The notes under the pieces are model-generated. The model did not search any database, had not been told where the DNA came from, and saw only the letters and a list, made by a program, of their open reading frames with translations. A stretch of 20,999 bases of DNA from a virus, in IMG/VR virus record IMGVR_UViG_3300025094_000035, positions 1 to 20,999 of that record. The stretch is one strand, 5' to 3'. Below are positions 2,330 through 20,999 of this stretch, piece by piece (the first letter of the stretch is position 1; each line of letters starts with the position of its first letter). The position numbers and the translations under genes are program-made.

Positions 2330-3427
2330 TCATGCGGGTTCGTAGGCCCCTGTGGTGGGGGCGCTCAGAGTAGCCGTCCCTAGGACGTCGGGGCTCGTGT
2401 AGCCCGGTTGGGTAATAGTGTCCACGCGGACGACTACAAGGGCATAGCTGCCAGTAGTAGGGGCAGCAAGGCTGGCGGTGCCCAAGGCGTCCATCATGCC
2501 ATCAGAGACCAGAACCACGGGTACATAGGCCCCCGCAGTGGGTGCGGCAAGTTGGGCCTGGCCCAAGGCATCCGCACCAAGATCTTGGACGATGACGATG
2601 GGAATGTATGCCCCCGTTGTAGGAGCGCTCAGTGTGGCTGTGCCCAGCAGGTCTACAACGCCGCCTTGCGTGATGACCACCGGAATGTAGGCACCTTCGG
2701 AGGGCGGGACCAACGCAGCTTGCCCAAGAGCGTGGTTCAAATACACCGGGTACAGCCCGGACCGTAGGACGTAGCCGGTGGTGTCTAGGGCGCTGACCAG
2801 GCTCCCCAAGAGCTCTATCTGGTAGGGCAAGGCGACCGCCTGGTCCAAGACCACGGGCTCCTGGAAGGTCTGGAGCACCTGGGCAGTAGCGTAGAGCTGC
2901 CTTTGTACCCGTTGGACCAGCGTTTTGCGGTCTGGGGTACGGTGCCAGACCAGGACGTCCGAGTCCGGGGGGAAGTAGCCCACCACGGCGTCGTTGAGGA
3001 CTACCGGGTCGTGGCCGGGAAAGGGCCCCCGCATCACAAACTGCTGGATCACGGGATCCCACTGGCGGATCCATACTTCCCCCTGGCGCTCATAGACCAC
3101 CACATGCCGGGCCGCCTGGTCGAAAGCCACGCCCATATGGGCGATTTCCTCCACGGGGTGGGGGAGCGGGGGCACCTCTACTTCTACCCACACCGCTGCC
3201 CCCGGCCCGCGGGGGTCGTTGAGGGGCCAGGGTCCTTCCCCAGGCACCTGGGCCTGGAAGAGCCGGAAGCGGCGCTCTGCCCTGTCCAGCACAGCTGCCC
3301 ACGCGTAGCCGTATAGGGTGGTGTAGCTTCCATCCCCAGTGTCGCCCATGGCCCGTGGCCCCGCAGTTAGGCGCACTTCAGGGGCAAAGGTACTTCCACG
3401 CTTGTAGGTCTTAGCCCTAGCTCTCAT
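2330..3427 (-). CDS. Putative spike/fibre protein with five C-terminal beta repeats
   Basis: A 365-residue protein. I chose ATG 3427 because it overlaps the upstream stop (ATGA) and begins MRARAKTYKRGSTF; the longer frame back to 3565 runs across the neighbouring gene. Residues about 1-220 look like a beta-rich domain with Trp/Tyr-rich strands, reminiscent of beta-propeller or viral attachment proteins. The C-terminus is five consecutive repeats of the form LGTATLSAPTTGAY followed by a short beta-strand (PIVIV) and an Asp/Gly linker. The unit is 27 residues, one copy is stretched to 34, and the last is truncated to 17. Such repeats suggest an elongated stalk or trimeric fibre. With the adjacent gene it probably forms the vertex spike. 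Function is inferred. Confidence 0.65.
   Translation of the reverse strand: MRARAKTYKRGSTFAPEVRLTAGPRAMGDTGDGSYTTLYGYAWAAVLDRAERRFRLFQAQVPGEGPWPLNDPRGPGAAVWVEVEVPPLPHPVEEIAHMGVAFDQAARHVVVYERQGEVWIRQWDPVIQQFVMRGPFPGHDPVVLNDAVVGYFPPDSDVLVWHRTPDRKTLVQRVQRQLYATAQVLQTFQEPVVLDQAVALPYQIELLGSLVSALDTTGYVLRSGLYPVYLNHALGQAALVPPSEGAYIPVVITQGGVVDLLGTATLSAPTTGAYIPIVIVQDLGADALGQAQLAAPTAGAYVPVVLVSDGMMDALGTASLAAPTTGSYALVVVRVDTITQPGYTSPDVLGTATLSAPTTGAYEPA
2333..2728 (-). repeat. Five tandem coding repeats, 81-bp basic unit
   Basis: In the 3' part of the fibre-like gene the encoded copies (minus strand, 5' to 3') occupy about 2728-2648, 2647-2567, 2566-2486, 2485-2384 and 2383-2333. All share L-G-x-A-x-L-x-x-P-x-x-G-x-Y; the fourth copy is expanded to 102 bp and the fifth stops after 17 codons. 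The repeats have diverged at DNA level, so they are old rather than a fresh slippage product, but they could still recombine to change copy number. Confidence 0.8.
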
Positions 3428-3873
3428 TGCAACAAGAGTTGCACCACTGCAGGACCTTCCCCAGCGTCCGACACTTCCAGGACCTCCAACGCGAAGGACA
3501 GTTCCACCGCCGCCGCGGGCAGGAGGACGTATGGGCCTACCCGTTGGGGCCCGAAGGTCCACCACAATAGCGCCTTCGCGTCCCCAATATTCACAATGTG
3601 ACCCCGGGTCGCAGGCTTACCCAGCAAGCCTGTAACGTCTATGCGCCGGGTTTCTGCTTCCACTTGCACTTGGGCCACCAGGGGCATCCGAGCTGGGTCG
3701 TGGCCTTGCAGGTCCCGCCGGGGCCTGCCGAACTCGTACTCCAAGGTGCGCTGGATCGCTCCCAACTGGTCCTTCAAGCAGGCCAAGTCGTCCCGCAAGC
3801 CCGTTAGGGCCTCCTGAACGCGCTGGGGGAGATTAGCCAAATCCTCTTGCTTCAAACCCAAGAGGTTGAACAC
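3424..3873 (-). CDS. Coiled-coil plus beta-domain protein, possible spike base
   Basis: A 149-residue protein starting at GTG 3873 behind a strong AAAGGAGGT site, overlapping the previous gene by 22 bp. Residues about 7-50 are heptad-like (LKQEDLANLPQRVQEALTGL onward), predicting a short coiled coil. The rest (about 60-149) is a compact beta-rich domain with hydrophobic strands (HIVNIGDAKALLWWTF, then VGPYVLLPAAAVELSFALEV). There is no TM segment or signal peptide. A trimerising coiled coil ahead of a beta domain, followed immediately by two fibre-like genes, suggests a spike base or connector. No family is recognised. Confidence 0.6.
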   Translation of the reverse strand: MFNLLGLKQEDLANLPQRVQEALTGLRDDLACLKDQLGAIQRTLEYEFGRPRRDLQGHDPARMPLVAQVQVEAETRRIDVTGLLGKPATRGHIVNIGDAKALLWWTFGPQRVGPYVLLPAAAVELSFALEVLEVSDAGEGPAVVQLLLQ

Positions 3874-9583: not shown

Positions 9584-10264
9584 CTAGGACGCTAGGGGCA
9601 CGTACACTCGCCGCCTGGGGTCCCGCGGGTCCCGCAAGACCAATCCTGCCCGGTCCCGGTCCAGGTCCTTCACCCCGTACTCAGGGGGGAGGCCTCCCTC
9701 GGGGCGCTTGAGCCCCGCCACCCGCTCCCCCAGCTCGGGAAACATCTCTGCCACCGCCCGCACCTCGTTGGGCTCCGACACCCGGAAGGTGACCAGGTGG
9801 GAGGCCTGGCGGCGCACCCCGGGATCAATGCCCCCCACTGCCCCCCGCATCATCTGGGTCACGAAGATCACAGAATGGCCGGCCTCGCGGCCTCCCGTCA
9901 GCACCTCGAAGAGCCCCCGGGGTACCTGCCCCCTGGGGAAGAACTGGTGGGCCTCGTCCACCACCAGGAGGACGTCTTTCAATCGCATGACCTCCTGGCC
10001 CAGGGCGTCCAGGAATCTGCGGGGGTCATAGCCCGTCACGTGGAAGTGCACCCGGGTGTGGCGCTTGAGGGCAGGCCCGGGGTCCCCCTCCTCCCCCACG
10101 CGGTAGCGCCCCTCTGCCAGATCCCAGAACTCCGTCTTGCGGTTCACGATGACCAGGCGGCGGAAGCGGCCTTCCATGCCCTGCACGATTTGCCGGGCCA
10201 GGGTGCTCTTCCCCGAGCCTGACTTACCGATGATGAGGATGCGGAAGGTCTGCCTACCGCCCAT
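9584..10264 (-). CDS. Genome-packaging ATPase (FtsK/HerA superfamily, A32-like)
   Basis: A 226-residue P-loop ATPase that would translocate viral DNA into the preformed membrane-containing capsid. The Walker A motif GKSGSGKST is at residues 13-21 and Walker B LLVVDEAH at 99-106. The segment TGGREAGHSVIFVTQ (123-137) supplies the Arg/His and sensor Gln typical of HerA/FtsK-type packaging ATPases of internal-membrane phages (PRD1 P9, P23-77 type). At about 225 residues it is the right size and lacks the extra domains of host HerA or FtsK. ATG 10264 lies inside the end of the PIN gene (11-bp overlap), so translation may be coupled. No terminase genes are present, consistent with this packaging mode. 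Confidence 0.9.
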   Translation of the reverse strand: MGGRQTFRILIIGKSGSGKSTLARQIVQGMEGRFRRLVIVNRKTEFWDLAEGRYRVGEEGDPGPALKRHTRVHFHVTGYDPRRFLDALGQEVMRLKDVLLVVDEAHQFFPRGQVPRGLFEVLTGGREAGHSVIFVTQMMRGAVGGIDPGVRRQASHLVTFRVSEPNEVRAVAEMFPELGERVAGLKRPEGGLPPEYGVKDLDRDRAGLVLRDPRDPRRRVYVPLAS

Positions 10265-10676
10265 AACGAGAAACGAGCTTCAAAAAACTGCTGAGGCCGA
10301 TAATCTTTGTCCCCGCCATCTTTTTGAGTTTAAGTAGGTCATCCTTATCCCCTGTCACCAGGTAGTTGGCCTCTCCGGCCAGGGCGATCCCTAGGATGAT
10401 ATTGTCGTCAGGATCAGGGGAGTGCTTCACCCCGGATTGGGGCTTGACCATCACGGCAACTTCCCGAAAGTGATTAATGAAAGTACCCACCTCCGCCCGG
10501 CTCAAGACCCCAGGGAACTTTTCCCGAAGCACCCGTTTCAGCTCAGCGATTTGCTCTTTGGAGGAGAGGATGTCAAAAGCCTCTTCCTCCAAACCGAAGT
10601 GGCGTACCAGCCGGTGGGCTTTGCCCTTGGTCAGCAGGGCAGCGATGAGGACGTTGGTGTCAAGAACGACCCTCAA
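10254..10676 (-). CDS. PIN-domain toxin (VapC-like putative RNase)
   Basis: A 140-residue single PIN domain, the usual length for putative TA-system PIN toxins. It has VVLDTNVLIAAL with the first catalytic Asp at D6, and an acidic cluster SPDPDDNIILGIALAG (D90/D91). LVTGDKDDLL (D110) supplies the last metal ligand, and a mid-protein Glu in SKEQIAELKRVL (E45) completes the acidic set. PIN toxins cleave RNA and are neutralised by a co-encoded antitoxin. The gene overlaps its antitoxin by 17 bp and the ATPase by 11 bp, an unusual embedding in virion genes. Probably an inserted stability or defence cassette. Confidence 0.85.
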   Translation of the reverse strand: MRVVLDTNVLIAALLTKGKAHRLVRHFGLEEEAFDILSSKEQIAELKRVLREKFPGVLSRAEVGTFINHFREVAVMVKPQSGVKHSPDPDDNIILGIALAGEANYLVTGDKDDLLKLKKMAGTKIIGLSSFLKLVSRYGR

Positions 10677-10869
10677 GATGGGCGAAAACCTCTTCCTCTG
10701 TTAACCCGGAACGCCCGGCCACCTGGCGCATGAACGCTGCCAACTCCTGCTTGGCCTTCTTCCGGCGGGCTTCCTCCCGCAGCAAGGCTTGGAGGCGGCG
10801 GCTCCAGCCGGGGCCGTAGGCCTCTTTGAAGCGCTCAATCTCCTTTTCCAAGGCGGCGGGCAAAGGCAT
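10660..10869 (-). CDS. Putative antitoxin partner of the PIN toxin
   Basis: A 69-residue, highly charged helical protein (MPLPAALEKEIERFKEAYG to GLTEEEVFAHLEGRS). Small size, a position directly upstream of and overlapping a PIN toxin, and a basic central helix fit an antitoxin, though no clear AbrB or RHH strand is visible. ATG 10869 has no Shine-Dalgarno sequence. Instead a TAGAAT box lies six bases upstream, so the mRNA probably starts at the A of the ATG, giving the cassette its own leaderless promoter. Antitoxins usually autorepress; no clear palindrome is seen at this promoter. Confidence 0.7.
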   Translation of the reverse strand: MPLPAALEKEIERFKEAYGPGWSRRLQALLREEARRKKAKQELAAFMRQVAGRSGLTEEEVFAHLEGRS

Positions 10870-17178: not shown

Positions 17179-17351
17179 CTTCCACCTCCCACGGCCAGCA
17201 CCACCAGCACCGCCGCCATGAGCCCCGCCAGGAAGGCCATGGCGGCGGCTAGGGCGGGCCCGGGCTGGCCGTACCGGGCCCGCACGTAGACGCCCAGCAG
17301 GGCGTAGAGGGCGAGGGCGAGGAGGAAGTAGGGGGCCGCCAGCTCAATCAC
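17175..17351 (-). CDS. 58-aa two-TM protein
   Basis: GTG 17351 with AAGGGGG five bases upstream, overlapping the end of the xis-like gene by 8 bp; stop TGA at 17175. TM1 is at about 7-22 (PYFLLALALYALLGVY), a basic loop (VRARYGQPGP) follows, and TM2 is at about 33-54 (ALAAAMAFLAGLMAAVLVVLAV). It fills a stretch of about 170 bp otherwise without a gene. An early membrane protein of this kind could act in superinfection exclusion or host takeover. Confidence 0.6.
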   Translation of the reverse strand: MIELAAPYFLLALALYALLGVYVRARYGQPGPALAAAMAFLAGLMAAVLVVLAVGGGR

Positions 17352-17535
17352 GGCTACCCCCTTTTACCAATCCATTGGTATCTGCGTTCAAAAAAAGGTC
17401 CAGGTCTTGCTCCGTAATCCTGTAACCCTTGCCTAGTTTGCGGGCTCGCAACCTGCCGTTCTTTATCCATCTCAGCACGGTGATGCGGCTGACCTTAAAC
17501 ATGCGGGCTACCTCGTCTACCCTGTAGACCTGCAT
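17344..17535 (-). CDS. Excisionase/Cro-sized HTH_17 protein, first gene of lytic operon
   Basis: A 63-residue protein, MQVYRVDEVARMFKVSRITV followed by LRWIKNGRLRARKLGKGYRI: a textbook MerR/excisionase-type (HTH_17) winged helix with wing GKGYRIT and C-terminal helix EQDLDLFL. I chose ATG 17535 because it is exactly +1 of a near-consensus promoter; GTG 17541 is in frame upstream. Being divergent from the repressor, it could be the Cro-like switch partner, the recombination directionality factor, or both. Confidence 0.8.
   Translation of the reverse strand: MQVYRVDEVARMFKVSRITVLRWIKNGRLRARKLGKGYRITEQDLDLFLNADTNGLVKGGSRD
17365..17380. promoter_or_regulatory. Operator-like palindrome A
   Basis: TACCAATCCATTGGTA: two perfect 7-bp arms around CC, inside the last codons of the xis-like gene and just upstream of the next start. 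It shares the core CCAATNCATTGG with the site at the repressor start, so it may be an auxiliary operator acting by looping or roadblock. Confidence 0.55.
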
Positions 17536-17541
17536 ACCCAC

Positions 17542-17570
17542 ACCTTACCAGCACATTAATGATTAGTCAA
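17542..17570 (-). promoter_or_regulatory. Leftward early promoter (leaderless)
   Basis: On the minus strand: TTGACT (17570-17565), 17-bp spacer, TAAGGT (17547-17542). Seven bases after the end of the -10 is the A of ATG 17535, so the transcript would begin at the start codon. It is the best promoter in the window. Operator-like sites cover its -10/spacer (17546-17561) and its -35 (17564-17579), so the repressor should switch it off. Confidence 0.7.
17546..17561. promoter_or_regulatory. Operator-like site B (degenerate)
   Basis: TACCAGCACATTAATG, 10 of 16 identical to site A, mainly in the left half-site TACCA and central CATT. It overlaps the -10 and spacer of the leftward promoter. Its centre is 18 bp from site C, close to two helical turns. 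Confidence 0.4.
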
Positions 17571-17579
17571 GCATTGGTA
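17564..17579. promoter_or_regulatory. Operator-like site C
   Basis: TAGTCAAGCATTGGTA, 11 of 16 identical to site A with a perfect right half CATTGGTA. It covers the -35 of the leftward promoter and the region where a -35 for the rightward repressor promoter would be, an arrangement suited to repressing one and activating the other. Confidence 0.45.
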
Positions 17580-17592
17580 ACGATGCGCCTAG

Positions 17593-17598
17593 TAAAGT
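17593..17598 (+). promoter_or_regulatory. -10 box of the repressor promoter (leaderless, weak)
   Basis: TAAAGT followed by GAGGGC and ATG 17605: the same -10/six bases/ATG geometry as the leftward promoter. The corresponding -35 (AGCATT) is poor, so the promoter may need activation by repressor bound at the adjacent site, like a maintenance promoter. Confidence 0.4.
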
Positions 17599-17604
17599 GA
17601 GGGC

Positions 17605-18309
17605 ATGCTTCTCCAATACATTGGAGACGTGGCCGTGAGGGTTAAGTCTAGGCCGCCATGGGCCGAAGCTTTGCGCAGAAGGCGCGAAGAACTAGGCTTG
17701 ACCCAAGAGCGTCTAGCAGAACTGACTGCTTTGGATGGACCGGAGCCTCTAGTCTCCCAAACCATGATTTCCGCCTTAGAAACAGGCTCCAGTTTGCCCA
17801 CCAAGCTTCAAGCGGAACGCCTATTTGCTTTGCTTCGCGCCCTCCGGTGGACCCCGGAGGAGTTCGCCGAAGCCACGGGCCTGGACGTGCCCCTGGTCTA
17901 CCGCCCCTCGGGGGAGCCTCGGGAGGATGTGGTCTGGGTGCCCGTGGTGGGCTCCGGCGTGGCGGGGCGGCCTTGGCCCGAGTCCGGGAGCATGCCCGTC
18001 CCCCGCCCCCTGGTACGCCCGGGCTCCGTGCTCATCCAGGTGGAAGGGGACTCCATGGACACCGGGGAGGAAGACGGTCTCCGGGACGGAGACCTTGTCC
18101 TGGTGGACCAGAACCTCAAGGAGCTTCGGGAAGGCCGGGTCTACGCTGTGGAGATCATCGGGGACGGCATCACCATCAAACGGGCCCGCAAGCTTGGCAA
18201 CCGCTGGATTTTGATTTCGGACAACCCGAAAGGCCCGCTTTTGGAACCCGAGGAGGTGCGCGTGATTGGGGAGGTCTACCGGAAGATCAGCATCCGGGAG
18301 GTGAAGTGA
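17605..18309 (+). CDS. LexA/CI-type self-cleaving lysogeny repressor
   Basis: A 234-residue protein that would hold the provirus silent. The N-terminal XRE-type HTH is at about 19-62 (WAEALRRRREELGLTQERLA, later SQTMISALETGSSLP). The C-terminal S24 peptidase domain begins at about 109. The cleavage site is Ala-Gly in GSGVAGRPW (A120-G121), the nucleophile Ser is in VEGDSMD (S150) and the general-base Lys in ITIKRARK (K192), all in the spacing of LexA/lambda CI, so DNA damage plus RecA should induce. The leaderless ATG 17605 is taken as start; GTG 17635, with GGAG eight bases upstream, is a real alternative and would put the palindrome 17610-17627 in the 5' leader. Confidence 0.9.
   Translation: MLLQYIGDVAVRVKSRPPWAEALRRRREELGLTQERLAELTALDGPEPLVSQTMISALETGSSLPTKLQAERLFALLRALRWTPEEFAEATGLDVPLVYRPSGEPREDVVWVPVVGSGVAGRPWPESGSMPVPRPLVRPGSVLIQVEGDSMDTGEEDGLRDGDLVLVDQNLKELREGRVYAVEIIGDGITIKRARKLGNRWILISDNPKGPLLEPEEVRVIGEVYRKISIREVK
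17610..17627. promoter_or_regulatory. Operator-like palindrome D at the repressor start
   Basis: TCTCCAATACATTGGAGA: two perfect 8-bp arms around AC, sharing CCAATNCATTGG with site A. Located at +6 to +23 of the repressor message, where binding would block its own transcription (negative autoregulation at high repressor levels). Confidence 0.6.
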
Positions 18310-18310
18310 T

Positions 18311-18775
18311 ATGAAACCATCAGGAATACGGTGGGGTTTAGTGGTCTTCGGCCTGGTACTGGCGGCATGCAGCTCCAACCCGCCCATAAACGCCACCGGC
18401 ACGTGGCTTGACCTCACGGCTAAAACTCGCCCCCTCAACAAAGCAGATTGCCCTGAAGACCCGATAAACACAGGGGAGTTAAGATTCTCCCTCAACCAAA
18501 GCGGCTCAAATGTGTCGGGCACCGTCCGAGCTTATACCCCCGGGCAACCCGCCGCTTACGGAGACGTGACCGCGCAAATAAGACAGGACGGCACCATAAA
18601 CGGCAACATGGTATTTAGCTCCCAGTCTGGAAACTCCGTCATTTCAATCGCTTTTGAAGGTCGGATACAAAGCACTTACTTCATCGGCAAAACCATCAGC
18701 CCCCTCACGAGCCAGTGCCCTTCCAACCAGAACATGGTGAGCGTTTACCTTGAATGGAACGCCCAGAAACAATAG
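18311..18775 (+). CDS. Small lipoprotein next to the repressor (candidate exclusion protein)
   Basis: A 154-residue protein from ATG 18311, one base after the repressor stop, with GGAGG upstream. It has a signal peptide with lipobox LVLAACSSNP (lipidated Cys at about residue 20) and then a beta-rich domain (TGTWLDLT, ELRFSLNQSGSNVSGTVRAY, DGTINGNMVFSSQ, SVISIAFEGRI) resembling small lipocalin/beta-barrel lipoproteins. Base composition is AT-richer than the genes around it. Co-transcription with the repressor implies expression during lysogeny, so it may alter the host surface or block superinfection. Inferred. Confidence 0.75.
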   Translation: MKPSGIRWGLVVFGLVLAACSSNPPINATGTWLDLTAKTRPLNKADCPEDPINTGELRFSLNQSGSNVSGTVRAYTPGQPAAYGDVTAQIRQDGTINGNMVFSSQSGNSVISIAFEGRIQSTYFIGKTISPLTSQCPSNQNMVSVYLEWNAQKQ

Positions 18776-18825
18776 GCACCTTGACTGAATCTTGGCTCAT
18801 AGGGGGGTCTTTCCCACGAAGTCAA

Positions 18826-19800
18826 ATGAGGCCCGATCCGCTGCTAAAACTGCTTGAGGACCCGGCCTATTTGGTCCAGGCGGATAGGGGGGAGCTTCTT
18901 GAGGTGGTGGTCCAGGCCCTCTTCGCCCGCCTGCCCGGGTGGAAGGCCTCCCGCCCAAGCCAGACCAACGCCCCGGACAACGGCCTTGACGTGGAAGCCA
19001 TAAGCCCCCAGGGCAAGCGCTACCTCATCCAGTGCAAAAACCTTTCCACGCCCGCAGATGCCAACCTGGTGAGGCTGACCCATGCGGCCAAAGACCTCCA
19101 CAGGACCCACAAGGGCATCCTCATCTGCCCCTCGGGGTTCACCAAGCCGGCGCTGGAAAACGCCGAAGCCCTAGGGGTGCTGACCTGGGGACCCGAGGAG
19201 TTGAGGCTTCTATACCAGGCGGCTTCCTCCGAGGCCGCCATGCGCAAGCTCGGTCTTTGGGAAGCGCCAAAGTCTCCGGGATTTTGGGATGGCCTCGCAA
19301 TCCACTTCAAAAACTGGCTTGCCCAAACCCGGAAGGAAACACTTTACGTGGGCATCGCCATCCTGATAGTCCTCGGTTTCCTCTTCCTTTTGACGCAGGG
19401 GTCTTCGCCCCAAAAGGCCAAACGCCCGGTCTCCTCACCCGAGGCCGTGGTGAGGGGCTACGACTCAGCCTATCGCTACGCCTTGAGCACCAACGACTGG
19501 GCCCCCCTCTACGAGTGGGCCTTCGCAGACTTCCTGGAACGGAAGGTTCTCCCCTTCATCCGGGAACGCCAGAGCCGGGGGTGCGTGCTTCGGACCGAAG
19601 AGCTTGAACCCATGCGGATCACCGCCGTGGAAGCCCTGCTCGACATGGCCGAAGTCTACGTCAGCAAGAAGTGGCAGCAAACCCTGGTTTGCCAAGACAG
19701 GCCCCCCAAGGAAGTGCTCAACAAAGCCTTCAGCACTTACTACCTCATCAAGCCAGATGCGGATGGCCGGCTGAAGGTCTGGCTTTCTGATTGGAACTGA
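18826..19800 (+). CDS. Membrane-tethered Mrr-like restriction endonuclease
   Basis: A 324-residue protein from ATG 18826 (the frame extends to 18754, overlapping the lipoprotein). Residues about 8-140 form an Mrr_cat-type PD-(D/E)XK nuclease: helix with LLEVVVQALFARLPGW, then NGLDVEAISPQGKRYLIQCK with D55, Q69 and K71, then a helix-strand with GILICPSGFTKPALENAEAL. A TM helix follows at about 174-191 (YVGIAILIVLGFLFLLT). The C-terminal domain of about 130 residues begins SSPEAVVRGYDSAYRYALST and looks NTF2/SnoaL-like, outside the cytoplasm, with two Cys. A DNA-degrading domain held at the inner membrane fits destruction of incoming DNA at entry. Expressed with the repressor, it is a strong candidate defence gene. 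Confidence 0.75.
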   Translation: MRPDPLLKLLEDPAYLVQADRGELLEVVVQALFARLPGWKASRPSQTNAPDNGLDVEAISPQGKRYLIQCKNLSTPADANLVRLTHAAKDLHRTHKGILICPSGFTKPALENAEALGVLTWGPEELRLLYQAASSEAAMRKLGLWEAPKSPGFWDGLAIHFKNWLAQTRKETLYVGIAILIVLGFLFLLTQGSSPQKAKRPVSSPEAVVRGYDSAYRYALSTNDWAPLYEWAFADFLERKVLPFIRERQSRGCVLRTEELEPMRITAVEALLDMAEVYVSKKWQQTLVCQDRPPKEVLNKAFSTYYLIKPDADGRLKVWLSDWN

Positions 19801-19826
19801 CAGAGGTTTTTGAGCAAAAGCCGCCT

Positions 19827-20999
19827 ATGAAGCGTAAACGAGGCAGGGGAGAAGGCTCCATCTTCCAGCGCAAGGATGGCCGCTGGGCCGGCTTCGTGAC
19901 CCTCGGGTACACCCCGGACGGCCGCCAGCGCAAAAAGTGGGTCTATGGCCGTACCCGCCAGGAAGTGGCTGAGAAGCTAGCCCGCCTCCTTCCCAAAGCG
20001 TGGACCGGCACCGTACCGGATCCATCTGGATTGAAGCTGGGGGACTGGCTCCTTCACTGGGTAGAAGAACGCGCGTTGCGGAAAGGGCTTCGCCCCACCA
20101 CTATCCGCAACTACCGGGTCTACATGGGCCACCTGGAACCCCTCCTGGGCATCCCCTTGCCACGCCTAACCTCCTTGCAGCTTCGGGCCTTTTTCGCTAA
20201 TCTAGCCCACTTTTCCCCTTCGCACCGCCGCCACATTTACCAGTTCCTTCGGGCCGCCCTACGGGATGCCGTCCGCACCGATTTAATCCCTTCCAACCCT
20301 ATGGACGCCGTAGATCCACCGGAAGGGGGTGCGGTAAGGCCGGCACGGGCCTGGACCCCGGAAGAAGTGGCCAGGTTCCTGGAGGCCTCCAAGGATCACC
20401 GCCTTCACACCCTTTTTCGGCTTATGCTGGCCACCGGGCTACGGATAGGGGAGGCCCTCGCTCTTCGCTGGGAGGATTGGCAAGGGGATCGCCTTTGGGT
20501 GCGCCACACGCTAAGAAGGGATGGCACCCTGGGGCCACCCAAAACACCGGGATCCATGGGTTACCTTTACCTTGACCCAGATACACAGGTGGCCCTGGCC
20601 ACCTGGCAGAAGCGGCTGGACGCGGAGCGGGAACAGGCGGAAGATTGGCAGGAGCACGGTCTTATCTTCCCTTCCCGTCGTGGAACACCCCTGGAGTACC
20701 GCAATGTTCTTAGGGCCTTTAACGAGCTTCAGGCCAAAGCCGGAGTTACCCCCATCAACCTTCACGGGCTCCGCCACACCTACACCTCCTTGGCCTTGCG
20801 GGCTGGCCTTCCCCCTAAGGTGGTGGCGGCCAGGTTGCGCCACAAGGATGTAAAGCTCACCCTCCAGGTCTATCAGCAGCTTATGGACGATGATCTGAAG
20901 GCCGGGGCTGTGCCCCTTGACACCTTGCTACACCTACAGGGGCCTCAAAAAGGGAATAAGTCCTCCCCCCAAAGAAGTAAAAAGAAGGCTCTTCTGTAG
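19827..20999 (+). CDS. int: Tyrosine integrase
   Basis: A 390-residue recombinase, full length, with TAG as the last codon of the window. ATG 19827 (MKRKRGRGEGSIFQRKDGRW) gives a typical arm-binding N-terminus; an upstream TTG at 19791 overlaps the nuclease gene. An AP2-like arm-binding domain lies at about 5-60 and a SAM-like core-binding domain at about 68-165. The catalytic domain has Arg in ATGLRIGEAL (R206), Lys in PPKTPGS (K239), HGLRHTY (H313, R316), LRHKD (H339) and the nucleophile in LQVYQQL (Y349). All are present, so it should be active. It lies at the end of the lysogeny cassette, so attP is expected just beyond 20999, outside this window. Confidence 0.93.
   Translation: MKRKRGRGEGSIFQRKDGRWAGFVTLGYTPDGRQRKKWVYGRTRQEVAEKLARLLPKAWTGTVPDPSGLKLGDWLLHWVEERALRKGLRPTTIRNYRVYMGHLEPLLGIPLPRLTSLQLRAFFANLAHFSPSHRRHIYQFLRAALRDAVRTDLIPSNPMDAVDPPEGGAVRPARAWTPEEVARFLEASKDHRLHTLFRLMLATGLRIGEALALRWEDWQGDRLWVRHTLRRDGTLGPPKTPGSMGYLYLDPDTQVALATWQKRLDAEREQAEDWQEHGLIFPSRRGTPLEYRNVLRAFNELQAKAGVTPINLHGLRHTYTSLALRAGLPPKVVAARLRHKDVKLTLQVYQQLMDDDLKAGAVPLDTLLHLQGPQKGNKSSPQRSKKKALL

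Follow-up and report, generated by a model that had tools for sequence, protein, structure and literature searches.

What do the two genes between the repressor and the integrase of this phage do, and do they belong together? The stretch of DNA analysed here (20,999 nucleotides, hereafter the window) is a virus record, from a phage of the IN93/P23-77 group, and is kin to the Thermus phages IN93, Tsatsa and P23-77. At the right end of the window a repressor, a lipoprotein, a nuclease and an integrase follow one another on the + strand, with the virion genes on the opposite strand. The features of this region are as follows.

17605 to 18309, + strand: LexA/S24-type repressor (HTH plus Peptidase_S24; Pfam Peptidase_S24 1.2e-14, HTH_31/HTH_3)
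Within 17605 to 18309, + strand: C-terminal half of the repressor, one edge of the shared cassette by nucleotide identity
18311 to 18775, + strand: lipoprotein, 154 aa, lipobox LAAC at 18359-18370, predicted lipocalin-like beta barrel
18826 to 19800, + strand: protein of 324 aa made of an Mrr-type nuclease, a TM helix and an outer NTF2/IMS-like domain (Pfam, hydropathy, AlphaFold, Foldseek)
18898 to 19179, + strand: Mrr_cat PD-(D/E)XK domain (Pfam Mrr_cat; Foldseek)
18988-18990, 19030-19032 and 19036-19038, + strand: nuclease motif codons D55, Q69 and K71
19339 to 19395, + strand: single transmembrane helix, residues 172-190 (hydropathy; helix 170-190 in the model)
19438 to 19797, + strand: predicted extracytoplasmic ARC6/PARC6-IMS-like (NTF2-like) domain, by fold match
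19582-19584 and 19690-19692, + strand: invariant outer-domain cysteines C253 and C289
19827 to 20999, + strand: tyrosine integrase (Phage_integrase 1.3e-22) from ATG 19827; as listed, the ORF begins at TTG 19791
From 19827, + strand: first ~55 codons of the integrase, the second cassette edge, with identity to five relatives dropping sharply near 20,000

The genes are closely spaced. The lipoprotein ORF begins 1 nt past the repressor stop, and a ribosome-binding-like stretch, GGGAGGTG, lies before it where the repressor gene ends. For the nuclease gene, 18826 is the most likely start because the same ATG abuts or overlaps the repressor stop in the lipoprotein-less phages of Thermus sp. 2.9, T. 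parvatiensis RL and IMG 3300020567; a start upstream at 18754 was rejected in its favour. A sigma-70 promoter scan from 17300 to 20000 returned no site, so no promoter of its own is demonstrable for the lipoprotein and nuclease pair.

The initial annotation placed a lipobox protein and a three-part nuclease protein directly behind the repressor, and both ORFs were confirmed at those positions. It took them for an undescribed system, which they are not. In IN93 (NC_004462), ORF37 and ORF38 are 99% and 96% identical to the window lipoprotein and nuclease, in the same order and slot and with the same architecture (a lipoprotein; a Type IV REase-like domain, a TM helix and an extracellular DUF4101). 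The pairs differ in nothing essential; it is the N-terminal half of the repressor and the body of the integrase that have diverged. The IN93 pair, its architecture including DUF4101, its operon and its variable slot have been described, with defence or superinfection exclusion proposed as the role (Viruses 2024;16:1410; PMC11437467, section 3.7). The authors cite an operon running from repressor through lipoprotein and nuclease to integrase that is presumed to be transcribed in the prophage. As predictions, the architecture, the lysogenic context and the defence or exclusion idea of the initial annotation hold, and we consider that the nuclease and lipoprotein probably shield the host cell from other viruses. 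The pair is real, conserved and already described as a prediction. What we add is the uncoupling of the two genes, a nuclease-TM form that lacks the outer domain, the fold of the outer domain at the level of PDB structures, support for the topology from a cysteine pair and flank charges, and sharp exchange boundaries.

The Mrr_cat domain occupies residues 25-118 of the 18826-19800 product (Pfam, E = 1.7e-9; 38.2 bits against a curated cut-off of 21) and is matched by eight of nine nuclease family members, the ninth being a fragment. D55, Q69 and K71 (motif D...QxK) are retained in all full-length relatives, and the nuclease part resembles AF1548, MspJI, EcoT38I and AspBHI when compared with the PDB using Foldseek. 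With the domain above cut-off and the motif intact, the earlier assignment to the Mrr-like PD-(D/E)XK nucleases stands. Sequence searches of the PDB returned nothing with the single protein as query and only AF1548 (E = 0.095) with the family profile. NCBIfam gave no match for the window protein, and PADLOC no strong one, only a weak hit to PDC-S02 (E = 0.0018) over the nuclease domain. Matches in plasmids and other phages cover the catalytic domain alone; the one that was domain-checked, in Deinococcus QL22, is an Mrr_cat protein of 197 aa. Other Thermaceae genomes encode Mrr proteins of a single domain (156-176 aa), which were set aside because their architecture differs.

Behind the nuclease lies one TM helix (core residues 172-190, Kyte-Doolittle 2.56), which is present in every member of the family. 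AlphaFold was run on eight sequences and block-mean pLDDT is reported. Most values lie at 77-92 for the nuclease core and at 79-91 for the outer domain (about 80-91 in the window protein), the linker is unsure, and the model of the whole protein is confident inside its domains but not between them (pTM 0.44). Based on Foldseek, the intermembrane-space (IMS) domains of PARC6 and ARC6 provide the first 18 PDB matches to the outer domain (E = 4e-7 to 1e-5), the best with E = 4e-7 and probability 1.0, and NTF2-like proteins take the next ranks. The TM-score to the ARC6/PARC6 targets is 0.55-0.79, and the deposited structures include a PARC6-PDV1 complex. Within the nuclease family, Pfam gives weak matches of NTF2 type (Lumazine_bd_2, SnoaL_4). 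The sequence profile of the IMS domain (PF13355, ARC6-like_IMS; DUF4101) has no match in the window protein or its family, nor any above cut-off over 50 Thermaceae genomes; the likeness is thus one of fold, and host, partner and role differ. We predict an ARC6/PARC6-IMS-like domain of NTF2-like fold, in agreement with the outside NTF2-like domain that the initial annotation had proposed.

Several features bear on the orientation of this protein in the membrane. It has no N-terminal signal peptide. In the window protein the K/R counts on the two TM flanks (3 vs 4) are not clearly asymmetric. Among relatives, some from G-numbered genomes of the family to which the T. parvatiensis genome belongs, the flanks are N-side positive in G011 and IMG 3300022554 (6 vs 2 each), G003 (5 vs 1) and IMG 2502171156 (4 vs 2) but not in G009 (1 vs 3). 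A spacing of exactly 36 residues separates two outer-domain cysteines in every member that has the domain, whereas cysteines of the nuclease domain are not conserved. As indirect evidence, the missing signal, the flank charges of several relatives, the cysteine pair and a tail-anchored variant that ends after its TM helix fit a protein with its nuclease inside and its domain outside, carrying a periplasmic disulfide.

The closest mechanistic precedent, by analogy, is SNIPE, a membrane nuclease able to cut phage DNA during injection (PMC13190303). Like SNIPE, the window protein is predicted to be a single-TM nuclease of the inner membrane with a cytoplasmic catalytic domain and a membrane part able to dock on a host protein, and its proposed action is likewise at DNA entry. 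Loss of the TM has been seen to make SNIPE toxic. The two proteins have no common domain: SNIPE is built as TM-DUF4041-GIY-YIG with its TM near the N-terminus, and the window protein as Mrr PD-(D/E)XK-TM-IMS-like domain. Neither GIY-YIG nor DUF4041 was found in the window protein by Pfam, so at most it works like SNIPE.

The reading that we prefer, which we rate close to an even chance though short of it, is that a membrane-tethered nuclease cuts incoming DNA near the inner membrane in the lysogen, a SNIPE-like function from unrelated parts. The slot between repressor and integrase would be a site for exchangeable cargo, expressed together with the repressor in the lysogen, and its main cargo an inner-membrane protein with a cytoplasmic Mrr-type DNase, one TM helix and a periplasmic domain. 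This ARC6/PARC6-IMS-like domain, probably disulfide-stabilised, would most likely bind an envelope protein. The tether would keep the nuclease away from the chromosome and place it where foreign DNA enters, and the enzyme would cut the DNA of superinfecting phages, or other DNA on its way in, close to or at the membrane; cleavage at the entry site itself is possible by analogy. The lipoprotein is a second, independent gene in the slot. A fuller version is more tentative: the periplasmic domain would dock on an envelope protein related to entry while the nuclease cuts the entering phage DNA, making this another nuclease of the SNIPE kind, assembled independently and distributed across matsushitaviral Thermaceae prophages by a recombination-driven slot. 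If the nuclease does act at the membrane, DNA cutting at the site of entry would have arisen at least twice, from nuclease folds and docking domains that differ, and also among thermophiles. A restriction enzyme active throughout the cytoplasm, or an abortive-infection effector, would look identical in sequence.

The first of these, a Type IV (modification-dependent) restriction enzyme that is anchored in the membrane incidentally and degrades modified phage DNA, was proposed for IN93 (PMC11437467). It accounts for the catalytic domain, since Mrr, MspJI and AspBHI share the PD-(D/E)XK Mrr_cat core with the window nuclease, and modification-dependent enzymes (MspJI, AspBHI) are among the fold neighbours. 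Unlike them, however, the window protein has a membrane anchor and an outer domain, and no modification-reader domain (SRA, Mrr_N or other) was found in it or its family, where Pfam gives only the catalytic domain. Only ~24 residues precede Mrr_cat, which leaves no N-terminal room for a reader; one outside the known families is conceivable. We consider this explanation unlikely.

An abortive-infection effector, whose outer domain would sense envelope disturbance and whose nuclease would destroy the host chromosome, agrees with the order sensor-TM-nuclease and with the neighbouring cargos of sister phages, which include HEPN proteins, a common effector type. However, a single short TM offers no obvious signalling route, and a natural form in G003 (L076:5717-6298, - strand) ends after the TM helix and still has nuclease and TM without the outer domain. 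This form sits in the same slot with the integrase directly behind it; thus the membrane anchor is retained even where the outer domain is not. Such an effector is improbable in our view, and tethered cleavage of incoming DNA in the lysogen is the reading that we carry forward.

We surveyed the cargo between repressor and integrase in related phages and prophages. In every readable slot a LexA-like repressor and an integrase flank the nuclease or lipoprotein cargo, as follows.

Window and IN93: lipoprotein and nuclease
T. parvatiensis RL: nuclease
Thermus sp. 2.9, IMG 3300020567 and IMG 2502171156: nuclease, two small proteins and a HEPN protein
G009, G011, G024 and IMG 3300022554 (L057): nuclease alone
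G020: contig near-identical to G024, ending just past the nuclease
G003: nuclease-TM without the outer domain
IMG 3300000383 and IMG 2758568001: lipoprotein alone
G046: lipoprotein, small proteins and a HEPN-like protein, no nuclease
Tsatsa: WD40-like lipoprotein, two small proteins and a HEPN protein
IMG 3300044960: starts inside a nuclease gene, so that the left side is not covered

When cargos occur together the order is lipoprotein then nuclease, or either of them followed by the HEPN block. Of the two genes, only the nuclease is present in Thermus sp. 2.9, T. parvatiensis, IMG 3300020567, IMG 2502171156, G009, G011, G024 and L057, which make at least seven slots in related prophages, and only the lipoprotein in the three slots of IMG 3300000383, IMG 2758568001 and G046. 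Both are together only in the window and IN93, and are thus apart more often than together. Since each occurs without the other in related slots, we conclude that lipoprotein and nuclease are separate cargos of a modular slot, not a fixed pair.

The block of two small proteins and a HEPN or HEPN-like protein recurs beside the integrase (L008:7535-8518, L007:10988-11968, L055:7058-8206 and L075:5567-6651), and PADLOC gave no match for the block members scanned.

Thermus is highly transformable, and the nuclease is conserved across matsushitaviral prophages of several Thermaceae, as would suit a role outside defence, either in maintaining or inducing the prophage, with DNA processing at the membrane as one example, or as a general limit on natural transformation. 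Yet the slot is optional: Tsatsa and the three phages with lipoprotein alone of the two genes have other cargo instead of the nuclease. We regard a non-defence role as improbable, to much the same degree as abortive infection. Least likely by far is a two-component exclusion system in which, as first suggested, the lipoprotein would serve the nuclease as its outer partner: the genes are adjacent, tightly packed and on the same strand in the window and IN93, but both of these pairs lie within one shared DNA block and so count as roughly one event, and co-occurrence, the check that the initial annotation had named, fails elsewhere in the survey.

The lipoprotein has a hydrophobic N-terminus and, by inspection, a lipobox at residues 17-20 (LAAC, in LVVFGLVLAAC/S) that is retained in its relatives. 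AF2 models it as a beta barrel (pLDDT 75), for which Foldseek gives weak lipocalin matches (E = 3.5e-4 for the best, TM-score 0.4-0.5). Like the superinfection-exclusion lipoproteins raised in PMC11437467 it is a small prophage lipoprotein behind a repressor, but it has no detectable homology to them and is predicted to be a lipocalin-like barrel. It is a separate envelope cargo and perhaps a surface-exclusion factor.

The preferred reading includes exchange of the slot, and nucleotide identity changes abruptly at its margins. Compared with IN93, T. parvatiensis, IMG 3300020567 and IMG 3300000383, identity climbs from ~55% to 80-100% near 17,850-17,900 and drops to ~52-55% at 20,000. Based on codon counts, the C-terminal half of the repressor is 90-98% identical in nucleotides among five phages and the N-terminal halves mostly 56-58%; Thermus sp. 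2.9 has the N-terminal half in common with the window too. The first ~55 codons of the integrase are 83-97% identical and the body 66-67% (against IN93, 97% falling to 67%). The more distant Tsatsa, IMG 2758568001 and G046 have no such boundaries. From these steps, the repressor C-terminal half and the integrase N-terminus mark edges of exchanged blocks, and they look like anchors for homologous recombination. A modular slot with such sharp edges is a practical route to more lysogeny-expressed exclusion genes in Thermaceae phages.

The DNA-binding half of the repressor (17605-17880) has been swapped between phages independently of the C-terminal half (17880-18309), and the swapped halves may correspond to different immunity types.

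Taken over its full length, the nuclease gene has pairwise dN/dS of ~0.13-0.28 among Thermus phages, indicating purifying selection. Values are mostly 0.07-0.26 in the nuclease and outer domains; the catalytic domain mostly has the lowest and the linker has higher ones. The value for the outer domain against IN93 is 0.92, on four changes only. These ratios indicate that the nuclease gene is maintained.

Two loci elsewhere in the window also deserve mention. At 2330-3565 (- strand), beside a virion/fibre protein, a 411-aa protein with repeated 'LGTATLSAPTTGAY'-like units and no Pfam match is possibly a spike. At 10254-10869 (- strand), flanked by the endolysin-side genes and the packaging ATPase, a PIN_3-domain protein preceded by a 69-aa ORF forms a toxin-antitoxin-like locus; at the comparable place in IN93, only two small ORFs are annotated.
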